A stretch of 64,000 nucleotides of DNA from Acetobacterium sp. KB-1 (GTDB lineage Bacteria; Bacillota; Clostridia; Eubacteriales; Eubacteriaceae), in NCBI RefSeq assembly GCF_003260995.1, contig NZ_CP030040.1, positions 62,001 through 126,000 of the forward strand. Direction: 5' to 3'. The position numbers and the translations under genes are program-made. The notes under the pieces are model-generated. The model ran no database searches, had not been told where the DNA came from, and saw nothing but the letters and a program-made list of their open reading frames with translations. Position 1 is the stretch's first letter; every line of letters starts with the position of its first letter. Positions 14,019-46,655 of the stretch are shown here, in pieces.

Positions 14019-14047
14019 TTGACAATTAAAGGCAAAAAAAATATAAT
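14019..14047 (+). promoter_or_regulatory. Consensus sigma-70 promoter of the cofactor-uptake cluster
   Basis: TTGACA at 14019-14024 and TATAAT at 14042-14047 are separated by exactly 17 bases, a perfect consensus. Transcription would start near 14054, leaving a leader of about 260 bases. Confidence 0.85.
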
Positions 14048-14075
14048 AAAAATAATTAAATACGGAATGAAATTG

Positions 14076-14174
14076 CTTACTGATCTTAACTTCCTAAAAT
14101 ATTAGAATATTATGGAGGTTATGACGTTAGGGTTTTGTTGGAAACGACAGGGCCTCCCACATTGGAAAAGTAAG
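14076..14174 (+). promoter_or_regulatory. Candidate molybdenum-cofactor (Moco) riboswitch
   Basis: The closing stem is CTTACT (14076-14081) with AGTAAG (14169-14174). A second helix, AATAUU-type (14098-14103 with 14106-14111), is flanked by CCTAAA (14093-14098) and TATGG (14111-14115), almost exactly the 11-nt receptor for GNRA tetraloops. A third helix (14136-14140 with 14145-14149) is capped by GAAA (14141-14144), the matching tetraloop. GGCCTCCCA lies at 14151-14159. As I recall, the Moco RNA motif uses a tetraloop/receptor contact, and the downstream genes are molybdenum-related. The class is inferred, not tested; another structured RNA is possible. Confidence 0.6.
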
Positions 14175-14204
14175 AGAATTCATGTTTGCATCGAATTTTT
14201 TGTG

Positions 14205-14232
14205 GGTTTAGCTTTGCTGAGCCTTCTTTTTT
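14205..14232 (+). terminator. Leader terminator (riboswitch expression platform)
   Basis: GGTTTAGC at 14205-14212 and GCTGAGCC at 14216-14223 form an 8-bp stem with a 3-base loop, followed by TTCTTTTTTT. It lies between the structured leader and the first gene, where a ligand-controlled terminator would be. Confidence 0.65.
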
Positions 14233-14314
14233 GCAAAAATTGTTTTTTTTGTTTTTTCTGTTGGGATTCCTGACTCAGCATGCTTCCGTAAAAAAGAAAG
14301 CTCAGGAGGAAAAA

Positions 14315-14812
14315 ATGAAAAAGAAGTTGTTAACACTGGCATTGGTGATGGTTTTAGGGGTTGGTCTGCTTGGTTGCAGTTCACCTGCGGCAGATTCAAA
14401 AAAAGAAGAAAACGCTTCCAAAACGGAAAGCCAGGAGCAGGTGGCCGAGTTTAGCATTACCCTGGAAGGGGTTGATGGAAAAACCCAGTTGACCCAGGCA
14501 GATCTTGCGGCTCTTCCTTTGGTTGAAAAAACCATAAAAATGACTAAAAAAGATGGCTCAGAAACAGGTGGGATTTTTAAAGGGTATGCCTTAAAAGACG
14601 TAGCCGAAAAATTAGGAGTCACCGATTTTACCAGCATCACGATGGAAGCATCAGATGGTTATTCCAAGCCCTATGATCAGGCGACGGTGGAAGCAGAGGA
14701 TTCACTACTGACCATCTCACTTGACGGTGAAGAACTCGTCAGCGTAGTGGCAGGCAGTTTAGGTTCCAGCGCCTGGGTTCAAAACATCAGTAAAATGAGT
14801 GTTGTGAAATAA
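14315..14812 (+). CDS. Lipoprotein with sulfite-oxidase-like Moco-domain fold
   Basis: A 165-residue lipoprotein: signal peptide with lipobox LLGC, Cys21 being the lipid anchor. After a polar linker the domain (about 45-165) follows the oxidoreductase molybdopterin-binding pattern: LTQADLAALP, then FKGYALKDV, then ASDGYSKPY, ending with a conserved hydrophobic strand. The family's Moco-ligating Cys is absent, and the mature protein has no cysteine after the lipid anchor. It may bind a pterin or other ligand rather than do redox chemistry. ATG 14315 follows AGGAGG; a longer upstream reading would destroy the signal peptide. It is first behind the candidate riboswitch. Confidence 0.7.
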   Translation: MKKKLLTLALVMVLGVGLLGCSSPAADSKKEENASKTESQEQVAEFSITLEGVDGKTQLTQADLAALPLVEKTIKMTKKDGSETGGIFKGYALKDVAEKLGVTDFTSITMEASDGYSKPYDQATVEAEDSLLTISLDGEELVSVVAGSLGSSAWVQNISKMSVVK

Positions 14813-14826
14813 TAAGAGATTAAGTG

Positions 14827-14850
14827 GGCAAAGTCACCTTTGCCTGCTTT
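14827..14850 (+). terminator. Weak terminator or attenuator
   Basis: GGCAAAG at 14827-14833 and CTTTGCC at 14838-14844 with loop TCAC, then TGCTTTGTTTTG. The tail is imperfect, so partial read-through is likely. It could make the first lipoprotein more abundant than the genes after it. Confidence 0.55.
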
Positions 14851-14901
14851 GTTTTGTTTGGGGAGCGGTGCGGATTTTAGAATTAAAGGAGGGTTAAAAA
14901 G

Positions 14902-15483
14902 ATGAGCAGAGAAACGCGTGATGATGACACCTTGGTTAATTTGAGTAACAAAAATTCTAAACGCAAAGAGCGGCTCAAACGATGGATCCTGCCACTGGTG
15001 ATTCTCTCTTTAACCCTTTCTTCTGTTTTTCTGATTGCGATTAACAAAAGTCAGACGGAGCAGCGGTTGGGTGCTCTGGGGCAGGAAACTGTTAAAATAA
15101 TAGTCGGTGATGAAATGGTTGCCCAGTTTAATCTTGACGAGGTCAAAGTACTGCCAAAGGTTTTGATTGATGAGGGGCTAAATACCAGTAACGGCAGAGA
15201 AGAGGTGGTCTTTGGCGGTTTGCTGTTAAAAGATGTGCTCGACACCACTAACTTTGACTACCATCAGTATAATACCGTAACCTATAAAGCCATTGATGGT
15301 TATGCGTCCCCCGGGACGGTGGCTGAATTGGACGCGGGTGGGGTCTATCTAGTCTATGAACGAAACGGGATTCAAAATACCGATAAAACTCAGGGTGGAA
15401 CGGGTCCCATGGAAATTGTTATTACCGGTGAGACCTTTAGTTTGCGAAATTGCAAGTATTTAAGTGAAATATATTTCGAGTAA
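14902..15483 (+). CDS. Membrane-anchored protein with Moco-domain-like fold
   Basis: A 193-residue protein with a charged N-terminus of 24 residues and one membrane helix (about 26-46), no lipobox. The external domain repeats the pattern of the preceding lipoprotein: VKVLPKVLIDEG, GGLLLKDVL, KAIDGYASPG. Its only domain cysteine lies close to the C-terminus (RNCKYL), not at the Moco-ligand position. It has a clear AAAGGAGGG site. It is probably a sister ligand-binding protein in the same uptake or sensing system. The family assignment rests on motif spacing only. Confidence 0.6.
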   Translation: MSRETRDDDTLVNLSNKNSKRKERLKRWILPLVILSLTLSSVFLIAINKSQTEQRLGALGQETVKIIVGDEMVAQFNLDEVKVLPKVLIDEGLNTSNGREEVVFGGLLLKDVLDTTNFDYHQYNTVTYKAIDGYASPGTVAELDAGGVYLVYERNGIQNTDKTQGGTGPMEIVITGETFSLRNCKYLSEIYFE

Positions 15484-15509
15484 AATAATTACCATAAATG
15501 AGGTGCATG

Positions 15510-16271
15510 ATGAAAGTAATGTCGGTAAGGGGATTGACCCATTCGGGAAAAACAACAGTGATCGAAACCATTATCAGAGGCCTGAGAAGAAGAGGCTATT
15601 CGGTGGGATCGGTTAAGGAAATCCACTACGAAGCCTTTATGATGGATCAACCGGGCACCAACACCGATCGTCATAAAGAAGCCGGTGCACAACTGGTGAC
15701 GGCTCTGGGGATGTATGAAACGGATATTCTCTATCAGGAAAAATTGCCGATCCGAAAGCTGCTGGCTCACTACGACTATGATTATGTGATATTAGAGGGT
15801 GTTGACGATCCAACAATCCCTAAAATTATCACCGGACATGATTGCGAAGGTCTTGAGGAGCGCTTAGATGACACGGTTTTTGCATTTTCGGGAGTTATTG
15901 CCGACAAACGTAAAGAATATCGGGGAAAAGAAGTGGTTCACTGCCTGAAGGAACCGGACCGTCTGGTTGATCTGGTTCAGCACTATGCGTTTGAGTTGTT
16001 ACCTGGCTTTACAGAAAAGTGCTGTGGTTTATGTGGCACAGATTGTGTCGGTTTTTGTCGCCAGATTATTACAGGTGAGGTAAAAAGATCGGATTGTCCC
16101 CTTAAAGATGATGGGGTAACTCTAAAAATTAATGGACAAGCGATTGTAATGGTGCCCTTTGTTCAAAAACTCATTCAAAACGTCGTGCTCAGTGTGGTTT
16201 CAGAATTGGAAGGTTATGAAAAAGGAGCCGATATAAAAATACATATCGGCAGGCCGCAAGTGGATGAATGA
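15510..16271 (+). CDS. mobB: MobB-like molybdopterin-guanine dinucleotide adapter with Cys-rich C-terminus
   Basis: A 253-residue protein. Residues 1-165 form a MobB P-loop GTPase (RGLTHSGKTT, then a YDYVILEGVDDP segment). MobB assists nucleotide attachment or delivery of molybdopterin cofactor. The extra C-terminal domain holds CCGLCGTDCVGFC and a later DC, a likely iron-sulfur or metal site, making it longer than the typical MobB. ATG 15510 is chosen because GAGGTG at 15500-15505 lies directly upstream; ATG 15498 would overlap that site. The next gene starts inside its stop codon (ATGA). Confidence 0.8.
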   Translation: MKVMSVRGLTHSGKTTVIETIIRGLRRRGYSVGSVKEIHYEAFMMDQPGTNTDRHKEAGAQLVTALGMYETDILYQEKLPIRKLLAHYDYDYVILEGVDDPTIPKIITGHDCEGLEERLDDTVFAFSGVIADKRKEYRGKEVVHCLKEPDRLVDLVQHYAFELLPGFTEKCCGLCGTDCVGFCRQIITGEVKRSDCPLKDDGVTLKINGQAIVMVPFVQKLIQNVVLSVVSELEGYEKGADIKIHIGRPQVDE

Positions 16272-16948
16272 GACTAATAAAAAACTATGAAGCCGGCACC
16301 TATGAGGTGATCAGGCAATTTAAAAGTAAGAAAAACCGGGTTCGACTGATTAAGATTTCAGATGGTGAACAGGTACTCGAACTGATCGAAAAGAAATTTG
16401 CAAAAACAGAATCCCTTGAAAATGAGTTGGCGATGCTAAAACGGCTGAGTGATATGGATTTTAGCGTAGCGCCGTGTCGGGGCCGGTTTGATCGGGTGCT
16501 TCTTTATGAATATCTTGAAGGTGTCACCCTTTGTGAAAAACTAGAAGTTGCAGAAGCGCAAGAAACAAGTCGTAGTGGTGATACAGTTATGCCTGGCAAG
16601 GAAATAATTGATCTTTTTAAAAAGACCATTGATTGGCTTAATCGACTGCATCAAAAAACTGGCCTGGCTTTTTACGACATTAATCTCAGAAATTTCATTA
16701 TCCGTGATGGCACAGTTTATGCCATTGATTATGAAGATTTCCAGGCATTAACAGCGGCAGTTGATTATGGAAGACTGCTGGCCTTTACCCTAACCTACAG
16801 GCCCAGCTTTACCCAGTGGAAAAAAGCGCTAATCAGTGAACTGGAAGACTATCTAAAGAATCAGATCAAAGCGGATCTAGATGAAATTCGGCTGGAAAAA
16901 GAGAAAGAACTTGTGCGTATCAAGAAAAGGAGGGCTAAACTTGTTTGA
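16268..16948 (+). CDS. Small kinase-like protein (RIO/LPS-kinase type fold)
   Basis: A 226-residue protein with a eukaryotic-like kinase core: HQKTGLAFYDINLRNF contains His128, catalytic Asp137 and Asn142, and AIDYEDF carries the metal-binding Asp (154 or 157). The N-lobe is short, with a candidate lysine in ELIEKKF and VLLYEYLEG as the hinge. The basic C-terminal helix is rich in Lys/Glu. It resembles lipopolysaccharide-core or RIO-type small-molecule kinases more than protein kinases. It is coupled to mobB upstream (ATGA) and to the transporter S component downstream (8-base overlap), so its substrate is likely what that transporter imports. That is inference. Confidence 0.65.
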   Translation: MRLIKNYEAGTYEVIRQFKSKKNRVRLIKISDGEQVLELIEKKFAKTESLENELAMLKRLSDMDFSVAPCRGRFDRVLLYEYLEGVTLCEKLEVAEAQETSRSGDTVMPGKEIIDLFKKTIDWLNRLHQKTGLAFYDINLRNFIIRDGTVYAIDYEDFQALTAAVDYGRLLAFTLTYRPSFTQWKKALISELEDYLKNQIKADLDEIRLEKEKELVRIKKRRAKLV

Positions 16949-17573
16949 GAAAAAATTTGAAAAGATGACCCTTTTTGATCTGGTCACCATTGCCATGATG
17001 TCAGCTCTGGGTATCGCGGTTAAGGTTGTTCTGGTACCCCTGGTACACATTATTACCGGTCCTTTTTTTATCCCGGGGGGTTCAATTTCCGGGGGAATCT
17101 ATATGCTTTTTATTGTTTTAGGTGCCATGCTGGTAAAAAAAACCGGAGCGGCCTTTTTGGTTTGTCTGGTACAGGCCATTTTGGTAACCGTTACTGGCAC
17201 GATGGGTTCTCATGGCATCATGAGTATGATGACCTATTTAATGCCGGGGATGGGGGTGGAAATTCTTTACTTCGTTATCGGAAAATATAAATATACCAAA
17301 GGTGGCTGTTTTAGTGCCGGGGTGGTTGCCAATGTGCTCGGTAGCTTTGGGGTTAATTTTGTCTTCTTCCGACTGCCGTTGATTCCGTTACTTTTGACCC
17401 TGAGTTTATCAGCCTTGTCCGGGGGACTGGGCGGACTGCTGGCCTACGCTATTGCGAATCAAGTCAATCGTCTCGGTTCGTTCAAGGCGCACGAGGCGGA
17501 GGAATCGCTTGATATTCGTCTTAGCGGTGATCCGGGACGAATCGATAAAGAGGAGAAGACCAACTGTGAATAA
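16941..17573 (+). CDS. ECF transporter S component, YkoE-like, substrate unknown
   Basis: A 210-residue integral membrane protein with five or six hydrophobic segments. MTLFDLVTIAMMSALGIAVK is a typical ECF S-component beginning; GPFFIPGGSISGG and VKKTGAAFLVCLVQA resemble the YkoE group, whose known members are linked to thiamine or its precursor. No thiamine genes or TPP-type leader are nearby; the context is molybdenum cofactor. The start is TTG 16941, placed after AAAGGAGGG; longer readings overlap the kinase gene. ATPase and T-component genes follow directly. Confidence 0.75.
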   Translation: MFEKKFEKMTLFDLVTIAMMSALGIAVKVVLVPLVHIITGPFFIPGGSISGGIYMLFIVLGAMLVKKTGAAFLVCLVQAILVTVTGTMGSHGIMSMMTYLMPGMGVEILYFVIGKYKYTKGGCFSAGVVANVLGSFGVNFVFFRLPLIPLLLTLSLSALSGGLGGLLAYAIANQVNRLGSFKAHEAEESLDIRLSGDPGRIDKEEKTNCE

Positions 17574-17643
17574 GGGGAAGGTACAAAAAAAGATCAAATC
17601 GATCAAAGTTGGAGACGAGATAGAAAGAAAATGGGAGGCAGCG

Positions 17644-18327
17644 ATGAATCCGATTGAGGTCCACGATCTTTATTTTCGTTATCCTGGCTGTGATACCAAT
17701 ATTCTCCATGGACTGGATTTGAGTCTGAAAACAAATGAAATTTTAGCAGTCGCTGGTTATTCCGGCTGTGGTAAAAGCACCCTGTGTCATATCTTAGCTG
17801 GGATCATCCCCAAAACCATCCGGGGAAGAATTCAGGGTGAGGTGACCTTGTTTGGCGAATCGATTTTTGATATGCAAACACCCCGACTAGCCGAAAAGGT
17901 GGGAATTGTGTTTCAGGAACCGGATAATCAATTATTTTCTCCCACCATTGAGGCGGAGGTTGCCTTTGGACCCGAAAATCTCTGTGTCAAACGGGAGATT
18001 ATTGGAGAACGGATCGCGGCGATGCTTCAGTTGGTCGGTATGGAAGAGTTCCGGTTTGAAACGCCCAACAATCTTTCCGGCGGGCAAAAACAACTGATCG
18101 CTCTGGCTTCAGTTCTTAGTATGGAGCCGTCGGTACTGCTTTTTGATGAGGCCTTGTCGCAGATCGATACCCGCGGCCGGGAGATGATCAAAGCGGTGAT
18201 GTTACGCTTACGAGAAGCGGGGAAATCGATTATCATGGTCGAGCATGACTTTGACAATATGGACATTGCCGATCGCATCCTGGTGCTGAAGCATGGTCGG
18301 TTGATTCCTTACGAGGGCAGCTTGTAA
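17644..18327 (+). CDS. ECF transporter ATPase (EcfA1)
   Basis: A 227-residue ABC ATPase with Walker A GYSGCGKST, Q-loop VFQEPDNQLFS, signature LSGGQKQ, Walker B VLLFDEA and the H-loop VEHDF. The QEPDNQLFSPT pattern is typical of ECF ATPases. ATG 17644 follows GGGAGG and matches the family N-terminus. GTG 17566, overlapping the end of the S-component gene behind GAGGAG, would add 26 basic residues and cannot be excluded. It forms the energising heterodimer with the next ATPase. Confidence 0.9.
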   Translation: MNPIEVHDLYFRYPGCDTNILHGLDLSLKTNEILAVAGYSGCGKSTLCHILAGIIPKTIRGRIQGEVTLFGESIFDMQTPRLAEKVGIVFQEPDNQLFSPTIEAEVAFGPENLCVKREIIGERIAAMLQLVGMEEFRFETPNNLSGGQKQLIALASVLSMEPSVLLFDEALSQIDTRGREMIKAVMLRLREAGKSIIMVEHDFDNMDIADRILVLKHGRLIPYEGSL

Positions 18328-18386
18328 ATCGATCGATCGGTAAAAGTAAAACATATAAGTAAAGCATAACAATGAACGGAGCCAGT

Positions 18387-19052
18387 ATGGAGAGTTACAT
18401 CAAACTTGCGGGAATAACCTATGCTTATCCCCGCAGTCGGTTTGCATTAAAAAACATCGATTTGTCGCTGAATCGGGGTGAAATTACGGGGATCACCGGC
18501 GAAAACGGATCAGGTAAAACGACCCTGGGGAAAATTATCATGGGCATTCTAAAACCTGATTCCGGAAGCATTGAGATTGATGGGGTGGACGGTAAGGCAT
18601 TAAAGTTGTGTGAGCGGGGCGGAAAGATTGGTTATGCCTTTCAAAATCCGGATCGTCAGCTTTTTGCGGCCAGTGTCCAGGACGAAATCACGTTTCCCCT
18701 TGAAATTAAGGGACTCGATAAAAAAATCGCCCAAGAAAAGGCCGCTGTGCTGCTAAAACGGTTTGAGCTTAATCATCTCAAAGATCGGGTGCCGATGCGA
18801 CTCAGCCGCGGTGAAAAACAGCGTCTGGTGCTGGCGGCAACCCTGGCCCAGGAACCCGGGTTTCTGATTTTAGATGAACCCGCAACGGGGCTGGATCGGG
18901 ACCGCAAAAAAGCACTGTATCAATTAATGGAAGAACTCGCCGGGGAAGGCATTGGTCTGGCTGTGATTTCCCATGATCTGCAATTTATCAAGGATCATGC
19001 CAATCGCATTATCAAACTGGAAAATGGAGAGGTTGTGGATGATGGCTGCTAG
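18387..19052 (+). CDS. ECF transporter ATPase (EcfA2)
   Basis: A 221-residue ABC ATPase with Walker A GENGSGKTT, Q-loop AFQNPDRQLFA, Walker B FLILDEP and ISHD. The signature reads LSRGEKQ, where LSGGE is usual, an accepted variant in one partner of ECF heterodimers. ATG 18387 is preferred over 18372 because CGGAG lies 5 bases before it. It ends inside the T-component gene (14-base overlap), so the two are translationally coupled. Confidence 0.9.
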   Translation: MESYIKLAGITYAYPRSRFALKNIDLSLNRGEITGITGENGSGKTTLGKIIMGILKPDSGSIEIDGVDGKALKLCERGGKIGYAFQNPDRQLFAASVQDEITFPLEIKGLDKKIAQEKAAVLLKRFELNHLKDRVPMRLSRGEKQRLVLAATLAQEPGFLILDEPATGLDRDRKKALYQLMEELAGEGIGLAVISHDLQFIKDHANRIIKLENGEVVDDGC

Positions 19053-19776
19053 AATCGATCCCCGGACAAAAATAGTCCTGGTCCTCTGTCTGACCTCGAT
19101 GGTGCTGGTTGTCGAAAATCTGGCCTTTGTTGTGGGAATTGGTATCATTTCAATTGTCTGCGCCCTGCTTCTGGGGGTGGAGGTATTAATGCTGATCAAA
19201 CGGTATCGGCGGATTCTGATTCTGATTTTGACGCTCTCCATTGTCCAGAGTGTATTTACACCGGACACGGAGGTATTGTTTGAGATATTGGGAATCCCGC
19301 TGCTCACAGCAAAAGGAATTGCTATGGGGGTTAAGACATTTGTCCGGATGCTGGTGATTCTGACTTCAGGGATTATTATGTCGACATCAAACTATCGGGA
19401 GACCATTCAGGGTCTGATTCAGTGGAAGGTGCCCTATAAGATTGCTTTTATGACCGCTTTGTCATTGCGGTTTATCCCCATTTTTACAGAAGAATTTCAG
19501 GATTCGATGGTCGCACTTCAGTTAAAGGGCGTTGATTTTACAAAGGTTCCCTTTGGTAAAAAAACTCAGATTTATGTCTATCTGATTACTCCCATCATTC
19601 TTTCGTCCTTAAAACATGCCGAAGAGATTGCCATTGCCATGGAAAGCAGGGCCTTTGGGGCTTATCCCAATCGGGTGGAATATCTGGTTCTTAAACTAAA
19701 AGGCTATGATTATGGGGTGATGATTGCGGCTTTTCTGTTAAGCATCATTTATGTATGGGTAGCTTTAATTATATAA
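19039..19776 (+). CDS. ecfT: ECF transporter T component (EcfT)
   Basis: A 245-residue membrane protein with about five hydrophobic segments. The coupling motif AMESRAFGAYP near residue 200 is the conserved Ala-Arg signature by which EcfT contacts the ATPases. RIDPRTKIVLVL at the start is also typical. It starts at tandem ATG codons 19039/19042 behind GGAGAGG. With the S component and two ATPases it completes an uptake system in one locus. That arrangement suggests a dedicated transporter rather than a shared module. Confidence 0.9.
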   Translation: MMAARIDPRTKIVLVLCLTSMVLVVENLAFVVGIGIISIVCALLLGVEVLMLIKRYRRILILILTLSIVQSVFTPDTEVLFEILGIPLLTAKGIAMGVKTFVRMLVILTSGIIMSTSNYRETIQGLIQWKVPYKIAFMTALSLRFIPIFTEEFQDSMVALQLKGVDFTKVPFGKKTQIYVYLITPIILSSLKHAEEIAIAMESRAFGAYPNRVEYLVLKLKGYDYGVMIAAFLLSIIYVWVALII

Positions 19777-19829
19777 AGCAAAGAAGGAAATTGACGAATA
19801 AATAATAAAAAAGAATAAAGGAGAAAGCA

Positions 19830-20339
19830 ATGAAAAAGAGTATAAGTCTGCTTTTCGCTATGATGATGGTACTATTTCTGGCAGTGGGATGCAGTGGAAC
19901 GGGAGAGAAATCATCCCAGGATGAGACGACATTTTCGGGAACTGCCCAGGTGCGGGTTTTTACCGCTGCGGGTGAGCAATGGTTGATTGATGACCAATTG
20001 ATGTCGAGTGTGCCACTGGTGGCATTTGAAACGACCCAGGGGAAAAGTGGTGAAGAGTCAACAACCAATGACCATGTGGGAATCCTTTTAAAGGATATTC
20101 TAACAGAAGCCGGTGTGGATATAAGTTCGGTTAATCAGATCACCTGTACCTCACTGGACGGTTTTTCAAAGGTCTACAGTAAAACCGATTTGGAAGATCC
20201 GGAAAAACTGTTCTTGACCTTTGCAATGGATGGTGAAAATTTGACCTTTGAGAATCAGGATTGTTTTTTTATCGTTGCCAGGAATGAAAGTTTCAAACAA
20301 AACTGGACAAAGTTCTTAAAAGAAATAAAAATTAACTAA
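19830..20339 (+). CDS. Lipoprotein with Moco-domain-like fold
   Basis: A 169-residue lipoprotein with lipobox LAVGC (Cys21). The mature part repeats the pattern of the 14315 and 14902 proteins: MSSVPLVAFET, HVGILLKDIL, TSLDGFSKVY, and a terminal hydrophobic strand. The position where sulfite-oxidase-type domains hold the molybdenum Cys is Thr/Gln here, though two other cysteines (in ITCTSLD and NQDCFF) exist. It sits directly after ecfT with its own AAAGGAG site. A capture protein for the transporter is the natural guess. Confidence 0.6.
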   Translation: MKKSISLLFAMMMVLFLAVGCSGTGEKSSQDETTFSGTAQVRVFTAAGEQWLIDDQLMSSVPLVAFETTQGKSGEESTTNDHVGILLKDILTEAGVDISSVNQITCTSLDGFSKVYSKTDLEDPEKLFLTFAMDGENLTFENQDCFFIVARNESFKQNWTKFLKEIKIN

Positions 20340-20377
20340 TATAAGAAGAGTGCTTGATAAGAGAAAGAGAGGGAAAA

Positions 20378-21727
20378 ATGAAAAAGGGTTATATCGGGGT
20401 GCTTGCTTGTCTGATTGTGGTTATGTTAGCGGGCTGTACCAGTGGAGTTCATTATGAAGCAGGTAGTTATGTGGGGTCGGCTCAAGGGAAAGATGGTCCC
20501 ATCAAGGTAGAAGTGACCTTTTTAGAAAACAAGATAGAAGCAATTAAGGTCGTTTCTCACAAGGACGATCCGGAGTATGCAACCAGTGCGGTAGACGGGA
20601 TGCCGGAAATCATTATCAACAAACAACGTCTGGATGTGGATGCTGTTTCAGGGGCGACTCTGACCAGCCGTGGTATTATTGGTGCAGTGGCTCAATGTGT
20701 GACCGACGCCGGAGCTGACCCGCTAAAGTTGGGCTATGCATCCGTGGATAAGAAAACCGACGGCCAGGAAGTAGTGATTACCGGTCTGGCACAAGAACAG
20801 ATTATTACTGGCGATGAGATCAAGGCCATGACCCCTGTGTCCTTCGATGCGGTGGCTGTGGATGCCAGCGGGACCGAAACCCCCACCACCGGGATAGGCG
20901 TCAGATTAGAGGACATTCTGGCCCAATATGGGGCATCGCAAAAGAACTTTGATGCCATTGTATTAAATGCCACGGATGGTTACGCTATTGAAATCCCCCG
21001 TGATGTTTTGGCCATTCGGGATGTGATTATTGCTTATGAAATTAATGGTACCGCCACTGATCTACGAACCGTGGTGCCAGATGAACGGGCCATGTATTGG
21101 GTGAAATTCCTCAATAAAATTGAGCTTAAAGGTTTGGTAACCCAAATAGAAACTAAAAACCTGGCGATGATGGAAACGGCTCTGCTTTTGTGCACACCAG
21201 AAGAATATAAGTATTATGATGCCATCGATCAGGCTGTTCCCACGAGTCAACTGCTTGAAAAAACTGGCGGTCTTAAGACCGATACAGTGGAGGTAGCCGG
21301 AATAGATGGATGGGCCAGAACGGAGACCTATGATCTCTATAATAATCAGTATCTTAAAACGACCGGAGAGGATGCACCGATGTTTATCGGCCCGGATCTT
21401 CCTGAAGGGATGCGGATGAAGGACGTGCTCTATAATAAACTGGGTGAAGATTTGATTTTAAGTGTTACCAATGCCGAGCAAAAATATGGGACTATTACTA
21501 TCAATGGTCGGACCGGAGTCGCCATTGAAAAAATCTTTCAGGAGCTAAAAATAGCAGAAGCAGCCAGGTACAAGCTGATCGGTTCGGATGGCTATGAAGC
21601 AGAGATTTCTCTGCAAGATTTAAAGTCAGGAATGCTCACCCTTTCTGAGAGTGGTGTTGACACCGTTTTTGAAACACCGGAAGCAGCATCGGTAAAAGGT
21701 CTACTGTTTATTAAAGCACTTCAGTAG
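20378..21727 (+). CDS. Lipoprotein fusing an FMN-binding domain to Moco-fold domains
   Basis: A 449-residue lipoprotein with lipobox MLAGC (Cys20). Residues about 28-115 form an FMN-binding domain; DAVSGAT at 88-94 is the recognition motif for covalent FMN attachment by ApbE, with Thr94 as the likely site. Two domains with the Moco-fold pattern follow (GVRLEDIL with NATDGYAIEI; then GVAIEKIF with GSDGYEAEI). This implies extracellular redox chemistry. No apbE is in the window. ATG 20378 follows GAGAGGG and gives a clean signal peptide; the upstream ATG at 20354 would spoil it. Confidence 0.75.
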   Translation: MKKGYIGVLACLIVVMLAGCTSGVHYEAGSYVGSAQGKDGPIKVEVTFLENKIEAIKVVSHKDDPEYATSAVDGMPEIIINKQRLDVDAVSGATLTSRGIIGAVAQCVTDAGADPLKLGYASVDKKTDGQEVVITGLAQEQIITGDEIKAMTPVSFDAVAVDASGTETPTTGIGVRLEDILAQYGASQKNFDAIVLNATDGYAIEIPRDVLAIRDVIIAYEINGTATDLRTVVPDERAMYWVKFLNKIELKGLVTQIETKNLAMMETALLLCTPEEYKYYDAIDQAVPTSQLLEKTGGLKTDTVEVAGIDGWARTETYDLYNNQYLKTTGEDAPMFIGPDLPEGMRMKDVLYNKLGEDLILSVTNAEQKYGTITINGRTGVAIEKIFQELKIAEAARYKLIGSDGYEAEISLQDLKSGMLTLSESGVDTVFETPEAASVKGLLFIKALQ

Positions 21728-21735
21728 GTGACGGG

Positions 21736-23199
21736 ATGAAAACCCATGTAAGAAAAATTCAGATCATCGTTTTTTTGATTCTGTTCATGGTTATTCTTTC
21801 GGGATGTGATTATCAGGGATTGGGCGGTGAGTACCCTGAAAGCTTTAGAATCAGCGGGGATGTGGAGACCCCGCTGACTGTCAATACGATGATGGGATAT
21901 CCCATCATGCGAGTTACCCGAGATGAAAATAATTATACTGCCATTGCCTTAAAACAGGTGATTGACGAAGCAGTCCCCAGGTCAAAGAGCTATGATCTGC
22001 TGTTAATTGGCGAAGATGGTTTGTCCTCCAAAATAAGTGGCGCTAATCTTAGTGGTTGTCATTTGAGTTATTCAAGTCGTTATGACTGGGAACTGATCAA
22101 TACCCTCCATCCCATTTCCAGTCAGATTAAAAATCTGAGCACCATTATTGTTATTTCCACTGATTTAGCAGATGATAAACAGGCGATCGGAATTGATGAC
22201 CAGCAGGGATATCGACAAACAAGTGCCGGGAATCTTTTTCTTGAGGGCTTTACCGAAAAACGAATTTTTGAAGGTCAGTCTGAATTAAAGGGCAGAACCG
22301 TTACCGTGTATACGACCCACAAGCAGATTTTACCCGAGCAACTTCTTAATTACCAGACCGAATTTGCAGTGTTTGGACGGGATGGTAGCATCAAATTTGA
22401 TAAAAAAAGCGATAAGAACTATTTTGAAATCAGCGAAACCACGATCAGCTTTACCGCTTCGGATCTTACAACCATCGATGATGTTGCTGGTGTTTTAGCT
22501 GATCCGCCTCGGGTTTCAATTACAGATGTGGCTTCGGATACCATCCATCAGCTTGACAAAGGAAATAATGTGATGGTTATTGAACTCGACGGTCTGAGCT
22601 GGACGATGCTAAAAACAGCAGGTGAGCAGGGAAAAGCACCCTACTTGTCCAGTTTGACCGCCCAGCAGGCCTTATCTGTCTATCCGCCGATTTCTCCGGT
22701 CGGACTGGCGGCGATGATTACCGGAACGCTTCCAAGCAGCAATGGGATTAAAGACCGGGAAGTCATGGATTTTAACGGAATGGATATTTTTGAGAGAGCC
22801 CTGACTCTGGGTAAAACGGTGGCCTACATTGAAGGCGACATCAAAATGCTCAATACTTCCATCGAGCCGGTCCTTTCGGTTAACGAGGGCGATCAGGATA
22901 GCCAGGTTTTTAAAAATTCTCAAAAGGCGATTACAGAGAAAAACCAACTGATCTTCACGCATTTCCACAGCATTGATGATGATGCGACCACCTATGGCCC
23001 ATATTCTCAGGAGGCAATCGAGCAGATTTTCCAGGTGGATAGGATGGTTTTGGAACTGACCCGAGAATTTAAGGGAACGGTTATTATTACCGCTGACCAC
23101 GGGCTCCATCCTACCAGTTCAGGGGGAAGCCATGGCAGGATCTGTTATGAAGATATGCAAGTGCCCTATATCGTGATTAAAACCGAACCGGTATCATAA
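21736..23199 (+). CDS. Lipoprotein of the alkaline phosphatase/phosphodiesterase superfamily
   Basis: A 487-residue lipoprotein (lipobox ILSGC, Cys24). The N half (about 30-265) has weak similarity to the Moco-fold neighbours (AIALKQVIDE, LIGEDGLSSKI). The C half is an alkaline-phosphatase-superfamily hydrolase: IELDGLSW (metal Asp), a nucleophile region SPVGLAAMITG, HFHSIDDDATTYG, ITADHG and GSHGR supply the two-metal site. Related enzymes cleave phosphodiesters or pyrophosphates. Anchored outside the cell beside an importer, it could trim a phosphorylated or dinucleotide cofactor before uptake. It ends in a terminator. Confidence 0.75.
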   Translation: MKTHVRKIQIIVFLILFMVILSGCDYQGLGGEYPESFRISGDVETPLTVNTMMGYPIMRVTRDENNYTAIALKQVIDEAVPRSKSYDLLLIGEDGLSSKISGANLSGCHLSYSSRYDWELINTLHPISSQIKNLSTIIVISTDLADDKQAIGIDDQQGYRQTSAGNLFLEGFTEKRIFEGQSELKGRTVTVYTTHKQILPEQLLNYQTEFAVFGRDGSIKFDKKSDKNYFEISETTISFTASDLTTIDDVAGVLADPPRVSITDVASDTIHQLDKGNNVMVIELDGLSWTMLKTAGEQGKAPYLSSLTAQQALSVYPPISPVGLAAMITGTLPSSNGIKDREVMDFNGMDIFERALTLGKTVAYIEGDIKMLNTSIEPVLSVNEGDQDSQVFKNSQKAITEKNQLIFTHFHSIDDDATTYGPYSQEAIEQIFQVDRMVLELTREFKGTVIITADHGLHPTSSGGSHGRICYEDMQVPYIVIKTEPVS

Positions 23200-23300
23200 A
23201 AGAGATTGGTTCGCAGGCTAATCAATAATTGAGCAATAAGAAAAAAGAGATTTCGGTGTTGTTAGAATGAGCAAACAAGCCAACTTTTAATCGCTCTAAA

Positions 23301-23333
23301 AACGAACAAATGATCAAATAACGAACGTTAGTT
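23301..23333 (+). promoter_or_regulatory. Possible activator site for the sigma-54 promoter
   Basis: AACGAACGTTAGTT at 23320-23333 is an imperfect palindrome, and AACGAAC recurs at 23301-23307. It lies about 80 bases before the sigma-54 promoter, a normal distance for an enhancer-binding protein. Assignment is by position only. Confidence 0.4.
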
Positions 23334-23380
23334 AAAAAGTAAACGCTCAAAATAAGCACAAATACAAATCCATGATTTTT

Positions 23381-23407
23381 AAAAAGCCCATAAATTGGGC
23401 TTTTTTT
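23381..23407 (+). terminator. Intrinsic terminator
   Basis: AAGCCCA (23384-23390) and TGGGCTT (23396-23402) with loop TAAAT, followed by T residues. It ends the transporter cluster just before the sigma-54 promoter. Confidence 0.85.
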
Positions 23408-23411
23408 AATT

Positions 23412-23426
23412 TGGCACGATTATTGC
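23412..23426 (+). promoter_or_regulatory. Sigma-54 promoter of the aldehyde oxidoreductase operon
   Basis: TGGCACGATTATTGC matches the sigma-54 consensus TGGCAC-N5-TTGC perfectly at -24/-12. It is 61 bases before the MoeA-like gene. A sigma-54 activator is encoded far downstream in the same direction at 36912. Confidence 0.9.
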
Positions 23427-23486
23427 GTTATTAATTGGTGTCAGACTGACAACGAAGACAGATATCAAACAAATGGAGGAAATACA

Positions 23487-24509
23487 ATGAAGGTAGTACC
23501 TGTTCGGGAATCAGTGGGAATGTTTTTGGCTCATGATATGACCCAGATCATCCCCGGGGAGTTTAAAGGCGCAGCATTTAAAAAAGGGCACATTGTCAAA
23601 GAAGAAGACATTCCCCGATTAATGAACATGGGAAAAGAACATATTGCCATTATTGAGTATGGTGATGGAACAATCCATGAAGATGATGCGGCACTACGAT
23701 TGGGACAGGCAGCAGCGGGTAGCGGTGTGGAATATGTAGGTGCTTCTGAAGGTAAGGTGACGATGACAGCAACTCGAAATGGATTGCTTAAGATCAATGT
23801 TTCGGTACTTCAGGAAATAAACGAACTGGGTGAAATGATGATGGCCACGCTCCATACCGATACGATGGTGGCAAAGGGAACCCTGGTCGGATCGACCCGG
23901 ATCATTCCGCTTTCTATTGAAAATGAAAAACTGATTACGATGGAAAAGTTATGTGCAAGTAGTAAACCGATTGTAGAAGTGCTGCCACTGAAAAGATTTA
24001 AAGTGGGCGTTGTGACCACCGGTAATGAGATTTTTTATGGTCGGATTGAAGACAAGTTTGGAGATGTAATCAGAGAAAAGTTCGCGGAACTTGATTCCTA
24101 CGTATTTAAACAAGTGTTTTCCCGGGATGACTCGGATATGATTGCCCAATGTATCCTTGATTTAATCGAAGAAGGGGCAGACATTGTTACCGTAACCGGT
24201 GGAATGTCAGTGGATCCGGATGATGTAACACCAGAGGGGATTAGGAAAACAGGAGCCAAGTTTGTCTCCTATGGTGCACCAACCTTGCCCGGAGCCATGT
24301 TTTTGCTTTCATATCTGGGGGATATTCCCGTTTTGGGATTACCCGGATGTATTATGTACAGCCGCCGGACGGTGTTTGATCTGGTGGTACCTAAATTGAT
24401 GGTCGGCGAAAGATTAACTCCCAAAGACATCTCAAAGTTGGGACACGGCGGACTATGTTCCACCTGTCCGGACTGTCATTATCCCAATTGTGGATTTGGA
24501 AAAGGTTGA
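23487..24509 (+). CDS. Molybdopterin-binding (MoeA/MogA-like) protein
   Basis: A 340-residue protein. The C-terminal part has the molybdopterin-binding fold: GVVTTGNEIFYGRI near residue 170 and VTVTGGMSVDPDDVTPEG near 235. The N-terminal region resembles the MoeA-type entry domain only loosely. MoeA and MogA insert molybdate into molybdopterin; this shorter relative accompanies xanthine dehydrogenase-type hydroxylases. The last 17 residues are Cys-rich (CSTCPDC then CGFGKG), possibly a metal or Fe-S site, which is unusual. It is first behind the sigma-54 promoter, 47 bases before the aldehyde oxidoreductase. Confidence 0.8.
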   Translation: MKVVPVRESVGMFLAHDMTQIIPGEFKGAAFKKGHIVKEEDIPRLMNMGKEHIAIIEYGDGTIHEDDAALRLGQAAAGSGVEYVGASEGKVTMTATRNGLLKINVSVLQEINELGEMMMATLHTDTMVAKGTLVGSTRIIPLSIENEKLITMEKLCASSKPIVEVLPLKRFKVGVVTTGNEIFYGRIEDKFGDVIREKFAELDSYVFKQVFSRDDSDMIAQCILDLIEEGADIVTVTGGMSVDPDDVTPEGIRKTGAKFVSYGAPTLPGAMFLLSYLGDIPVLGLPGCIMYSRRTVFDLVVPKLMVGERLTPKDISKLGHGGLCSTCPDCHYPNCGFGKG

Positions 24510-24556: not shown

Positions 24557-27283
24557 GTGGAAAAAAAGACATTATTTATTAACGGGATTCAAAGGACGGT
24601 AATTGTCGATCCGGAAACAACATTGGCAAATTTAATCAGAAAACAGCAGGGGTTAACCGGAACAAAGGTAGGATGCGGAAAAGCTGAATGCGGCGCCTGC
24701 TCAGTTATTTTAAATGGCAAAGTGGTACGGTCTTGTGTAACAAAGATGAAGCGGGTTGACGATGAGTCTAAAATCATCACCATTGAGGGCGTTGGAACGC
24801 ACGATAATCTGCATCCGCTACAATTATCATGGATGGTAAATGGAGCAGCCCAATGTGGTTTCTGTTCACCTGGATTTATTGTTTCGGCAAAAGCATTGCT
24901 GGAAGAAAATGCCAGTCCTACCCGTGAAGAAGTGCGGGCATGGTTCCAAAAACATCGAAATGTTTGCCGTTGTACCGGTTATATCCCCATTATTGATGCG
25001 GTTATGGACGCAGCCAAACTGATGCGTGGCGAAATTAATAAAGAAGACCTGTGGTTCCAATTAAAAGAAGGTGCATCCATTATGGGGTCGAATATGGTTC
25101 GACCATCTGCTCTGGCAAAAGTTACCGGAACCTGGGACTTTGGTGCCGATTTAGGATTAAAAATGCCTGAAAACACCTTACATATAAAATTGGTTCAAGC
25201 TCAGGTTTCTCATGCCAATCTGATTTCTGTCGATACCTCAGAAGCTGAAAAAATGGAAGGTGTCTTTAAAGTCATCACCGCAAAAGATGTTCCTGGAACC
25301 AACCGTATTAACGGTCTGGCATTCCCAACGAACTTAGGCGATGGTCTGGAACGTCCGATTTTAAATGATAAGAAAATCTTCCAGTTTGGAGATGCCATCG
25401 CGATGGTTCTGGCCGATACCCCGGAACAGGCAGAAGCAGCAGCAGCAAAAGTCGTTGTTGAAGTTGAAGAATTATTACCATACATGAGTGCGCCGGCAGC
25501 GATGGCCGATGATGCCATTGAAATTCATCCGGGCACACCAAACATTTATTTTAAAACCAATATCGTTAAAGGTGATGAAACGGCGCCATTAATGGATAAA
25601 TTACCAAATATCATTGAAGACGACTTTTATGTTGGCCGTCAACCCCATTTACCATTAGAGCCAGATGTTGGGTTTGCCTATTTTGATGAAGAAGATAATC
25701 TGATGGTACATTCTAAGAGCATTGCCCTTCATTTCCACCAATTAATGACTGCCGAAGCGATTGGTGTTGATCCGACCAAATATTTCATCGTTCAGAACCC
25801 AACCGGGGGAACCTTTGGTTATAAATTCAGCCCAACCATTGAAGGCTTGCTGGGTGTAGCGGCACTGGTTACTAAAAGACCGGTTTACCTGGAATTCAAC
25901 ATGTACCAACAAATTACTTATACCGGAAAACGTTCACCATTCTTTATGAATGTAAAAATGGCGGCTGATGAAAAAGGAATTCTTAAAGCGATGGAAACCG
26001 ATTGGTCTTGTGATCATGGTCCATATTGCGAATTTGGAGATCTGGTAACGACCCGTGGTTCACAATTTATCGGTGCCGGCTACAACATTCCCAATATTCG
26101 CGGCGAAGGACGAACAGTTGCCACTAACCATGCATGGGGTTCAGCATTCCGAGGCTATGGCTCACCACAGAGTTTGTTCGCTTCTGAAACCTTAATTGAC
26201 ATGCTGGCTGATCAAATGGGCGAAGACCCATTGGAACTGCGATATAAAAATGTTTATCGTGAAGGTGATACTACCCCACAAGGTTGTCCACCAGACGTTA
26301 TTGCTTTACCACAGGCGATTGATACGATTCGACCGATTTATCAGGCTGCTAAAGCAAAAGCCGAGGACCTGAACGCAAAAGGCGGAGATACTAAACACGG
26401 CGTGGGAATTTCACTTAATATCTATGGTTGTGGTCTCGATGGTCCTGACTCTGCTGAAATGTGGATAGAGTTAACACCAAATGGCGTAACAGTAGGAGAT
26501 TCATGGGAAGATCATGGCCAGGGTGCTGACATGGGGACATTGACATTTGCTCACGAAACGTTAAAACCATTGGGGATCAAACCAGAACAAATCAAATTGA
26601 TCATGAATAACATGAAACTGACACCAAACAGTGGACCAGCCGGTGGAAGCCGTTCAAATGTTATGGTTGGTAATGCTATAAAAGTAGGCTGTGAAAACTT
26701 ACTGGCAGCCATGAAAAAAGCAGATGGCAGCTTTAGAACCTACGATGAAATGGTAGCAGAAGGTTTGCCATTACGTTATGAAGGCGTTTGGACGGCACCT
26801 TGTACGGCGCCATCGGTTGAAACCAGCCAGGGAAATCCATTCCCAGTTTATATGTATGGGGTATTATTATCAGAAGTTTCTGTTGATACCACAACCGGAA
26901 AAACGCATGTCGACAAATTGACCCTTGTATCTGACTGCGGAACCATTACCAATAAAACCGTACTTGAAGGTCAGTTGTGGGGCGGTTTAACTCAGGGGAT
27001 TGGCTTAGCCTTAAGCGAAGACTTTGAAGATCTAAAAAAACATACTACCCTGACCGGTTGCGGTATTCCTCAAGTGAAGGATGTTCCAGATGAAATTGTT
27101 CTGATTCATCAGGAAACGCATCGTCCATTGGGACCATACGGAGCTGCTGGTGCTGGTGAAATGCCATTATCTGCACCACATGCATCCATATGTAATGCGA
27201 TTTTTAATGCCTGTGGCGTTCGCATCAAACATTTACCAGCTTATCCAGAAAAAGTACTAGAAGGTTTAGAAGCCTTAAAATAA
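24557..27283 (+). CDS. mop: Molybdenum aldehyde oxidoreductase (MOP type)
   Basis: A 908-residue single-chain enzyme of the xanthine oxidase family, the same size as Desulfovibrio gigas MOP (907). It oxidises aldehydes to acids using molybdopterin cytosine dinucleotide, and has no FAD domain. Cys40, 45, 48 and 60 bind the plant-ferredoxin-type [2Fe-2S] cluster, and Cys100, 103, 137 and 139 the second; the numbering equals that of MOP. The Mo-site glutamate lies in GAGEMPLSAPH (Glu868, MOP Glu869). QPHLPLEPD and FGYKFSPT are further family motifs. Sigma-54 control suggests induction by a substrate. Electrons probably go to the next gene's product. AAGGAGG precedes GTG 24557. Confidence 0.93.
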   Translation: MEKKTLFINGIQRTVIVDPETTLANLIRKQQGLTGTKVGCGKAECGACSVILNGKVVRSCVTKMKRVDDESKIITIEGVGTHDNLHPLQLSWMVNGAAQCGFCSPGFIVSAKALLEENASPTREEVRAWFQKHRNVCRCTGYIPIIDAVMDAAKLMRGEINKEDLWFQLKEGASIMGSNMVRPSALAKVTGTWDFGADLGLKMPENTLHIKLVQAQVSHANLISVDTSEAEKMEGVFKVITAKDVPGTNRINGLAFPTNLGDGLERPILNDKKIFQFGDAIAMVLADTPEQAEAAAAKVVVEVEELLPYMSAPAAMADDAIEIHPGTPNIYFKTNIVKGDETAPLMDKLPNIIEDDFYVGRQPHLPLEPDVGFAYFDEEDNLMVHSKSIALHFHQLMTAEAIGVDPTKYFIVQNPTGGTFGYKFSPTIEGLLGVAALVTKRPVYLEFNMYQQITYTGKRSPFFMNVKMAADEKGILKAMETDWSCDHGPYCEFGDLVTTRGSQFIGAGYNIPNIRGEGRTVATNHAWGSAFRGYGSPQSLFASETLIDMLADQMGEDPLELRYKNVYREGDTTPQGCPPDVIALPQAIDTIRPIYQAAKAKAEDLNAKGGDTKHGVGISLNIYGCGLDGPDSAEMWIELTPNGVTVGDSWEDHGQGADMGTLTFAHETLKPLGIKPEQIKLIMNNMKLTPNSGPAGGSRSNVMVGNAIKVGCENLLAAMKKADGSFRTYDEMVAEGLPLRYEGVWTAPCTAPSVETSQGNPFPVYMYGVLLSEVSVDTTTGKTHVDKLTLVSDCGTITNKTVLEGQLWGGLTQGIGLALSEDFEDLKKHTTLTGCGIPQVKDVPDEIVLIHQETHRPLGPYGAAGAGEMPLSAPHASICNAIFNACGVRIKHLPAYPEKVLEGLEALK

Positions 27284-27305
27284 GTAGTCCAAGTCTCATT
27301 GCCAA

Positions 27306-27337
27306 AGGAATTGAAAGCTTCTAAGCTTTCAATTCCT
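27306..27337 (+). promoter_or_regulatory. Perfect 15-bp hairpin after mop
   Basis: AGGAATTGAAAGCTT at 27306-27320 pairs with AAGCTTTCAATTCCT at 27323-27337. No proper T-run follows, so it more likely stabilises the mop mRNA 3' end or acts as a partial terminator. The rest of the 267-base gap to 27550 holds a weaker AACGC/GCGTT hairpin near 27435-27460 and nothing else I can name. Confidence 0.6.
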
Positions 27338-27550
27338 ATTTCAAATTAATCGGTTAGTAACACCAAACTTTGGTGTTTGTTTCTATGATGCAATTGGGTT
27401 AAATTACGAGCTTAGCTTTAACGAAAGTGTCAAACGCTCATTATTATGGCGTTTTGTGAATTGTATATAGAAACAGACATCAGAACGCGTTATGGTGATG
27501 ATGTTTAATTATTAATGTATCGCTTGAATAATGAAAAGAGGAGACCAACT

Positions 27551-29941: not shown

Positions 29942-29980
29942 TGGGTATGGAAATAGTGGAGGAGGATGGAAATAGTGGAG
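29879..29980 (+). repeat. 34-base tandem repeat, three copies, across stop codon and next leader
   Basis: The unit starts ATGGAAATAGTGG, then AGGAGG, then ATGGAAATAGTGG and GT. Copies begin at 29879, 29913 and 29947. Because 34 is not a multiple of 3, each copy is read in a different frame, giving the Gly-rich C-terminus and the stop at 29939. Each copy holds an AGGAGG ribosome-site-like core. The last copy ends 7 bases before the next gene. Confidence 0.95.
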
Positions 29981-29987
29981 AGCAAAA

Positions 29988-30194: not shown

Positions 30195-30195
30195 C

Positions 30196-32741: not shown

Positions 32742-32747
32742 GGGAAA

Positions 32748-45813: not shown

Positions 45814-45861
45814 GGACAATTCTCCTTCTTCGGGCCACGCCCTGATGAAATACTATTTAAT

Positions 45862-46611: not shown

Positions 46612-46655
46612 AATTGTCTCCATGACTGCTGATGCGTCAGCATATATTAAAATTA

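Follow-up and report, generated by a model that had tools for sequence, protein, structure and literature searches.

An ECF transporter cluster in Acetobacterium sp. KB-1 as a candidate salvage importer for the molybdenum/tungsten pterin cofactor

The molybdenum cofactor (Moco) is generally regarded as made at home and too fragile for sharing, and we know of no transporter for it. Here we describe a gene cluster at positions 14019 to 23199 of a 64,000-nt stretch of the Acetobacterium sp. KB-1 genome (contig NZ_CP030040.1, positions 62,001 to 126,000; hereafter the window) in which a Moco-type leader RNA and surface lipoproteins stand with an energy-coupling factor (ECF) transporter, and which, as a Moco importer, would to our knowledge be the first. 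Heme offers a precedent for the arrangement, since the Isd and Shr surface relays of Gram-positive bacteria use layered binders to pass heme to a transporter; the likeness lies in surface and lipoprotein binders that would hand a cofactor to a transporter, while the cofactor differs and the relay in the present cluster is a proposal.

Several described systems resemble parts of the cluster. The group I ECF transporter YkoEDC, whose substrate-binding S component is YkoE (5edl), shares with it the PF09819 family, the fold and dedicated A and T genes in a cluster. The polar thiamine contacts of YkoE are lost in the S component described here, which has other invariant residues (K32, Q82, Y103 and N135) and is surrounded by a Moco RNA and Moco genes. 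PruR (7kom, 7kos, 7rkb) is the nearest solved relative of the cluster's lipoproteins by both sequence and fold, and the metal cysteine is absent from both; the cluster proteins differ in being lipid- or membrane-anchored in Gram-positive-type bacteria and in adjoining a transporter instead of a cyclic di-GMP (c-di-GMP) enzyme. In the excerpt of a 2026 review cited here (PMC13259868), PruR is described as lacking the metal cysteine and binding reduced pterins, with a site probably too small for Moco, a preference for tetrahydromonapterin and a role in pterin signalling. Among Moco/tungsten cofactor (Tuco) RNAs (RF01055), those without stem P3 are tied to tungsten-cofactor organisms or genes and those with P3 to molybdenum (Regulski et al. 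2008, PMC2408646, in part); the RNA of the window exceeds the gathering score of this class, is P3-less as in tungsten-cofactor users, and precedes the candidate importer cluster, a target that does not figure in the excerpt of that paper. The ECF flavin exporter EetB/FmnA of Listeria also has ECF parts beside flavoprotein lipoproteins but works in the direction opposite to that proposed here, and the present cluster is kept in genomes without cofactor synthesis genes. Caenorhabditis elegans obtains Moco from the bacteria that it eats, the route across membranes being given as unknown in the excerpt of PMC9793310; Moco from one organism is likewise used by another, but in an animal whose carrier is unknown there, and we claim no homology. 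Among the titles and abstract openings of the matches listed in the open-licence literature, there was no earlier report of a bacterial Moco importer; PMC13119186 concerns, in its excerpt, a cobalt ECF transporter, and that of PMC9607355 mentions nematode Moco uptake.

We judge it probable (roughly 0.7) that the cluster serves to salvage the molybdenum/tungsten pterin cofactor by importing it, a reading in which binding and transport are predicted from the genes. The importer parts identified computationally are a Moco-type RNA, exported PruR-like proteins and an exported phosphodiesterase, the ECF components S-A-A'-T, a kinase and MobB, and the set is conserved. A reading made earlier from the letters alone (the sequence-only reading) had named a Moco-type leader, lipoproteins, MobB, a kinase, S-A-A'-T, a flavin mononucleotide (FMN)/Moco-fold lipoprotein and a phosphodiesterase on one strand, and all were recovered by Pfam, Rfam, BLAST or AlphaFold; its model as a whole is largely, though not wholly, supported. 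Every named element lies on the forward strand between 14019 and 23199 in Pfam, Rfam and motif scans. The features are as follows, with the flanking hairpin and the next gene included.

14019..14047, +, predicted promoter-like site TTGACA-17-TATAAT (12/12 sigma-70 consensus match)
14066..14188, +, Moco/Tuco RNA RF01055, P3-less type (76.3 bits against a gathering score of 36, E 1.1e-16)
14204..14233, +, intrinsic-terminator-like hairpin and T tract (stem 14204-14224; 9-pair stem + TCTTTTTT)
14315..14812, +, lipoprotein 1, sulfite-oxidase (PruR-like) fold (Oxidored_molyb 22.5 bits, below the cut-off of 24; lipobox LLGC)
14822..14849, +, terminator-like hairpin between genes 1 and 2 (12 pairs + TGTTTTGTTT)
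14902..15483, +, lipo2, membrane-anchored PruR-like protein (AlphaFold pLDDT 87.5; best Foldseek match 7kom, 2.2e-6)
15498..16271, +, MobB with a C-terminal Cys-rich (Fe-S-like) domain (PF03205, 69.7 bits)
16268..16948, +, small APH/RIO-type kinase (PF01636, 25.1 bits, cut-off 23.2)
16941..17573, +, ECF S component (PF09819, 53.8 bits; frame open from ATG 16881)
17644..18327, +, ECF A ATPase (ABC_tran 89 bits; ECF_ATPase_1 207 bits, below the cut-off of 315)
18372..19052, +, ECF A' ATPase (ABC_tran 115.9 bits; ECF_ATPase_1 172 bits, below the cut-off of 315)
19042..19776, +, ECF T component (CbiQ PF02361, 97.1 bits)
19830..20339, +, lipoprotein 3, PruR-like fold (Oxidored_molyb 21.6 bits, below the cut-off of 24; lipobox AVGC)
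20378..21727, +, lipoprotein with an FMN_bind domain (SGATLT motif; PF04205, 57.2 bits) and a sulfite-oxidase-fold domain (PF00174, 35.8 bits)
21736..23199, +, lipoprotein phosphodiesterase, alkaline-phosphatase superfamily (PF01663, 62.8 bits; lipobox LSGC)
23381..23405, +, terminator-like hairpin 3' of the last cluster gene (10-pair stem + T run)
23487..24509, +, MoeA-like gene (MoCF_biosynth only, PF00994, 72.2 bits), a neighbour outside the unit

We propose that the surface proteins would catch cofactor shed by neighbouring cells and hand it to S, that the phosphodiesterase would trim it outside the cell, from dinucleotide to mononucleotide or by taking off a terminal phosphate, and that S-A-A'-T would bring the trimmed cofactor in at the expense of ATP. 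Inside, the kinase would put a phosphate back and MobB (MobA in one genome) would assist in rebuilding the dinucleotide; we infer the outside cleavage and inside re-phosphorylation from catalytic residues. The window genome has moa genes of its own, and there the importer would supplement synthesis. If true, this reading would account for genomes that have molybdenum/tungsten (Mo/W) enzymes but lack synthesis genes, would lead us to expect cofactor dependence and cross-feeding in acetogens and syntrophs, and would offer a means of supplying cofactor to cells. We lean, by a little over even odds, towards the wider idea that the Mo/W cofactor is a public vitamin of anaerobic bacteria, captured in metal-loaded form, after release by neighbours, by a PruR-fold relay and an ECF transporter, which would let whole lineages dispense with MoaA, MoaC and MoeA while they retain formate dehydrogenases and tungsten aldehyde oxidoreductases.

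The window genome is a single contig of 3.99 Mb; in S it is closest, among named organisms, to Acetobacterium dehalogenans and A. wieringae. S is present in 5/19 genomes of the genus, the window genome included, and in the 4 others (L008-L011) the cluster, Moco RNA through phosphodiesterase, keeps its gene order with a P3-less RNA in front. Within the class, 23 of 391 genomes matched the S profile, two of these weakly. S stands with A, A', T and MobB in 13 of 18 class neighbourhoods, 12 of these 13 also having the kinase by BLAST (L043 ends there), and the Moco RNA exceeds its gathering score in 14 of the 18; at L046, L047 and L050 the RNA stands 5' of a large surface/lipoprotein-like gene rather than of S. 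A profile scan of genome contigs returned 207 S relatives, the best 80 of which are the named loci of this study; these come from Acetobacterium, Alkaliphilus, Anaerovirgula, Sedimentibacter, Pelotomaculum, Desulfoscipio, Syntrophomonas and Halanaerobiales, and also from assemblies labelled Dehalococcoidia, Actinomycetota and Thermoleophilia. Viral and plasmid collections yielded no S relative. Our own covariance model placed a Moco RNA at 55 of the best 80 loci, 7 of the 55 having been used in building the model, and Rfam found it at all 7 loci tried, each of them also a match to our model.

Gene content was tabulated for the 49 loci whose sequence extends 3 kb or more ahead of S and 7 kb or more past it; each same-strand gene between 6 kb ahead of S and 8 kb past it was labelled by its best hidden Markov model (HMM) match. 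A sulfite-oxidase-fold lipoprotein is present at 45, T at 44, A and A' at 42 each, the Moco RNA at 36, MobB at 35, repeat lipoproteins at 31, the phosphodiesterase at 29 and the kinase at 27, which makes the S-A-A'-T genes and the lipoproteins the least variable elements. The sequence-only reading had looked to co-occurrence of S with the lipoproteins (45/49), mobB (35/49) and the kinase (27/49), and these counts bear it out; its substrate class, a molybdopterin cofactor, is likewise upheld by the conserved Moco RNA, by MobB or MobA, by proteins with a pterin-binding fold and by nearby Mo/W enzymes. At L040 (4958-7891) a FecCD-type ABC transporter and a Peripla_BP_2 lipoprotein lie between the lipoproteins and S, and L069 (4645-7614) has genes that resemble this pair by look only. 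An S-matching fragment occurs at L056 (G106), on a contig that also carries an FMN riboswitch and a lipo2-like gene.

The direction of transport was addressed through genomes that lack synthesis genes. Among 23 S-bearing genomes (the genus and class finds minus G004, G098 and G231, whose matches are weak or partial), MoaC is absent from 4, all of which also lack MoaA; these have completeness grades of 98% (G121), 100% (G176), 92% (G235) and 88% (G295). MoaC was also sought in the genomes of 50 of the best 80 loci, of which L087 was without data; among the resulting 49 named S-bearing genomes it is absent from 18. MoaA, searched in these 18 and in 7 controls (G461, whose MoaC is partial, and 6 genomes in which it is full), was found in 0/18 as against 7/7. 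All 22 S-bearing genomes without MoaA and MoaC nonetheless encode a PF00384 or AFOR enzyme, the two kinds counted here, with xanthine-dehydrogenase-type and sulfite-oxidase-type enzymes left out. Within the 18, which together with the controls were searched for AFOR and which alone were searched for PF00384, PF00384 occurs in 17 and AFOR in 14, with at least one in each. Comparison genomes without S were chosen by hand from the same lists (G050, G052, G053, G054 and G063 being checked for S with a single window protein as query), and of 12 lacking MoaA and MoaC only 2 (G063 and G066) have a Mo/W enzyme. The contrast of 22/22 with 2/12 gives a Fisher p of 5e-7, and that of the four graded genomes alone (4/4 against 2/12) a p of 0.008, kinship being uncorrected for in both.

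A Moco RNA stands at the S locus in 15 of the 18 MoaC-less named genomes. In G176, which is 100% complete with 0% contamination, the single PF00384 enzyme is encoded on the opposite strand, as the second gene from S-lipoprotein-MobA, and a Moco RNA precedes S; the only AFOR of G235 sits 1.1 kb beyond the kinase; and in Anaerosalibacter sp. ND1 (L076) a PF00384 enzyme stands between T and MobB. Because a cell unable to make the cofactor has none to export, import is favoured over export, and the direction proposed in the sequence-only reading is supported by the 22 genomes.

Several observations weigh against this reading. Most S-bearing genomes keep MoaC (19/23 and 31/49), and 15 of the 22 MoaA/MoaC-less genomes are labelled metagenome-assembled genomes (MAGs) without stated completeness. 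MoaC is missing from 15/33 MAG-labelled assemblies and from 3/16 other S-bearing assemblies, and because the former miss it more often, assembly gaps account for part of its absence; moaA and moaC are often adjacent, and a single gap could remove both. G063 and G066 have AFOR, but no MoaA, MoaC, MoeA_N or S was found in them, and S is therefore not the sole route; around the one AFOR in each (stretches L137 and L138) there is neither an S gene nor a lipoprotein nor a Moco RNA. The search for MoeA_N likewise failed in G439, where both MoaA and MoaC are present. An 11-row clade of S (Pelotomaculum, Desulfoscipio and their kin) lacks a Moco RNA and MobB in the stretches examined. Finally, the site of PruR has been judged too small for Moco, so that binding of the whole cofactor by the lipoproteins is no more than possible. 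The three MoaC-less assemblies not labelled as MAGs are Anaerosalibacter sp. ND1, in which MoeA_N was not found either, Clostridiaceae bacterium HSG29 and a 1.2-Mb Dehalococcoidia assembly. G297 (82% complete) and G414 (77%), in which MoaC is present and MoaA was not found, stand outside the 22, and absence of MoaE was dropped as evidence, PF02391 having also been missed in G086, G088, G196 and G258, which have MoaA and MoaC.

What the surface proteins bind bears directly on the cargo. Lipo1, lipo2 and lipo3 are mutually related by BLAST, the kinship of lipo1 and lipo3 having E values of 1e-6 to 6e-9 across relatives; E values from the lipoprotein-family HMM were not used for these three, since all are in its source alignment, but the FMN_bind lipoprotein, which is not in that alignment, matches the HMM at E 2.5e-16. 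A Pfam scan gave no match for lipo2, whose AlphaFold model has the sulfite-oxidase fold; its first four Foldseek matches are PruR structures, followed by sulfite dehydrogenases and oxidases. A profile of 40 lipo2-family proteins, including lipo1 and lipo3, is likewise nearest to PruR (7kom, 2.6e-5; 7kos, 7.1e-5) and then to sulfite dehydrogenases. In this alignment D132 is present in 40/40 and position 134 is Tyr in 34 and Phe in 6, and the Tyr of this D-G-Y motif aligns, profile to structure, with that of the Asn-Asp-Tyr motif in 7kom. The metal-coordinating cysteine of sulfite-oxidase-type molybdoenzymes is not conserved in the 40 proteins; the sole column with at least 6 Cys is C184, near the C terminus (21/40). 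Pterin binding by the lipoproteins is supported by this kinship with PruR, and the sequence-only reading, which had called them secreted Moco-fold proteins, was right about the fold, with the refinement that their nearest relatives are pterin binders without the metal cysteine.

The same kinship raises the alternative that the cluster imports a simpler pterin or a late precursor (tetrahydromonapterin, cyclic pyranopterin monophosphate or metal-free molybdopterin) in place of the finished cofactor. The preference of PruR for tetrahydromonapterin (PMC13259868, in excerpt) fits it, as does the MoeA_N kept in 4/22 MoaA/MoaC-less genomes, but a simple pterin would account neither for the Moco RNA and MobB nor for the missing moa genes, and a cargo still in need of metal sits poorly with the lack of MoeA_N in 18/22; we regard it as unlikely. 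Because those 18 of the 22 genomes are also without MoeA, the cargo of the proposed importer is most likely already metal-loaded, that is, the finished cofactor.

Export is a still less probable alternative, in which the ECF transporter would send molybdopterin cofactor out to load secreted sulfite-oxidase-fold proteins. It has a precedent in the ECF-type flavin export by EetB/FmnA (PMC9973259, in excerpt), FMN_bind and cofactor-fold lipoproteins adjoin the transporter here too, and the window genome, with MoaA, MoaC and MoeA_N, presumably makes the cofactor. The 22 S-bearing genomes without MoaA or MoaC, however, should have nothing to send out, the lipoproteins lack a conserved metal cysteine and resemble binders, ApbE was not found among the 19 scanned window proteins, and the kinase would have no clear role. 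We rejected export as the main function on the ground that genomes without synthesis genes keep the cluster.

The flavin domain and the PruR kinship also invite a reading of the cluster as a surface system for redox reactions or signalling that responds to pterin or Moco and to which the transporter is incidental. PruR acts in pterin signalling (PMC13259868, in excerpt) and FMN_bind occurs in 3 of 7 tested lipoprotein homologues (Acetobacterium and 2 of the other 6). It is, however, absent from the remaining 4/7, no c-di-GMP or sensor-kinase domain was found among the scanned unit proteins, nor, among the 19 scanned window proteins, a DcpA or DTB-type regulator partner of PruR, and it is S-A-A'-T and the lipoproteins that are most constant across loci; we consider this reading very improbable. 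On the same 3/7 count the FMN domain was rejected as a core part of the cluster, and the FMN/Moco-fold lipoprotein of the sequence-only reading keeps both domains in the window with the flavin one optional. An HMM class first named for it ("FMNlipo") proved to be largely sulfite-oxidase-fold repeats, and a motif expression for FMN_bind (3/63 matches) was too strict, missing L130 and L074. Giant S-layer-repeat surface proteins occur at L045 (10783-18000), L047 (237-4772) and L053 (3586-6204); two of the three, and a fourth giant protein at L044, contain Oxidored_molyb domains, and that of L053 also has a Shr-like_HID domain. Because some loci add such proteins, a cell-wall relay of surface binders is suggested for the proposed importer.

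Consecutive genes encode S, two ABC_tran ATPases and a CbiQ-type T, so the four are predicted to form an ECF transporter with ATP-driven uptake. The most likely start of S is TTG 16941, which follows GGAGGG and falls within the end of the kinase frame, and the start of A (ATG 17644) was taken from the translation. The AlphaFold model of S (pLDDT 89.5) has a single fold match with E below 0.001, YkoE 5edl (1.3e-4, TM 0.67/0.72); the smaller profile A1 matched YkoE in the Protein Data Bank (PDB) at E 8e-4, and profile A5 gave no PDB sequence match at E up to 1. The excerpt of PMC5037267 names Y46, W49, E77, Q95 and D131 as the thiamine contacts of YkoE. E77 becomes V and Q95 becomes P in S in all three alignments (HMMER, MAFFT and hhalign); D131 falls on V142 in HMMER and MAFFT and on the conserved N143 in hhalign, and conserved aromatics lie near the Y46 and W49 positions, with a pairing that varies between alignments. 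K32, Q82, G93, G96, Y103, P106 and N135 are invariant in 73/73 S proteins, a count that, like those for MobB and the kinase below, leaves out proteins beyond length and score limits. The sequence-only reading had named, as a finding that would count against it, a grouping of S with thiamine carriers amid unconserved neighbours; the contacts at E77, Q95 and D131 are lost and the neighbours are kept, while the S tree (79 rows) has its one thiamine carrier, YkoE, on a very long branch and says little on grouping. That the cluster is a thiamine or hydroxymethylpyrimidine transporter of the YkoE kind, set among Moco genes by chance, is suggested by the PF09819 membership and this lone fold match but scarcely credible, given the E77 and Q95 replacements in three alignments and that of D131 by V in two and N143 in the third, the Moco RNA as the only Rfam match in the window and neighbours conserved across genera, and a thiamine carrier on family membership alone was rejected, the polar contacts being lost and the genomic context different.

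A second context of S is seen at L073 (6943-13408), a member of the 11-row clade, where S lies beside a ModA-like solute-binding protein, a LysR-type helix-turn-helix (HTH) protein, NTPase_1 and a methyltransferase; the distant S of G060 (L012, 5465-7711) shares the last three of these neighbours. We read the solute-binding and HTH proteins of L073 as ModA and ModE, and S of this type as also sitting near molybdenum genes, in a second Mo-linked setting without MobB. At L053 (8325-9267), in the subclade without Moco RNA, MotA/ExbB-like and DUF2149 proteins stand immediately 5' of S.

The leader at the head of the cluster is the sole Rfam match in the window. The P3 columns of the RF01055 alignment are deleted in the window RNA and its 4 genus relatives, all five thus lacking the P3 stem of the molybdenum-sensing Moco RNA, and the Moco-type leader of the sequence-only reading is refined to the P3-less, tungsten-cofactor type. 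Tungsten use by the organism is plausible because its genome has five AFOR_C and two PF00384 matches. The hairpin and T tract at 14204..14233 are the probable expression platform; terminator-like hairpins also stand 3' of 33/57 aptamers, a count from our own finder, run without a null model, that was not used as evidence. The cluster is likely read as a single transcript despite the additional hairpin at 14822-14849, which may reduce or halt read-through into gene 2; terminator-like sites number 21 against 9.6 expected. Tandem Moco RNA pairs stand 5' of the cluster at L069 (3441 and 3605), L077 (530 and 767), L092 (6096 and 6261) and L131 (7191 and 7358), and could be a Mo/W switch or a two-step switch.

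The accessory enzymes retain residues fitting the proposed steps. MobB has its P-loop residues G12, G17, K18 and T19 in 50/50 homologues, with Cys residues also conserved, and scores 126 bits against the PRK14494-type MobB/FeS model, under the cut-off of 418. The kinase keeps K42, E53, D137, N142 and D154 in 38/38 homologues, a Lys/Glu/Asp/Asn/Asp series that we take to be the catalytic set of protein-kinase-like and APH kinases. In the phosphodiesterase the nucleophile column (n=46) holds Thr in 39, Ser in 6, the window protein among them, and a gap in 1; D285 is present in 46/46, and D414, D454, H455 and H466 each in 42/46, the remainder being gaps, while H418 occurs in 35/46 and is Thr in the window protein. 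This layout is presumably the Thr/Ser nucleophile and two-metal site of nucleotide pyrophosphatase/phosphodiesterases. The N terminus of the protein has no match to the lipoprotein-family HMM, and we claim no binding domain there.

The MoeA-like gene at 23487..24509, in which Pfam gave no MoeA_N match, lies 5' of a xanthine-dehydrogenase-type gene. Both genes adjoin the cluster in L008 and L009 and neither does in L011, L010 ending too early. Because it is past the 23381 hairpin and absent beside the cluster in L011, the MoeA-like gene is outside the unit, paired with the xanthine dehydrogenase gene; it does follow the cluster, as the sequence-only reading had it, without belonging to it. Further molybdenum-enzyme genes occupy 24557-36221 of the window, among them a xanthine-dehydrogenase-type protein of 908 aa, XdhC and a MobA-like transferase with an HD domain. 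A nickel-insertion protein of LarC type (494.6 bits) lies at 44662-46623 beside an AIRC-domain gene that we read as LarB-type, and an ArsA-type ATPase and ArsD are encoded at 200-2686.

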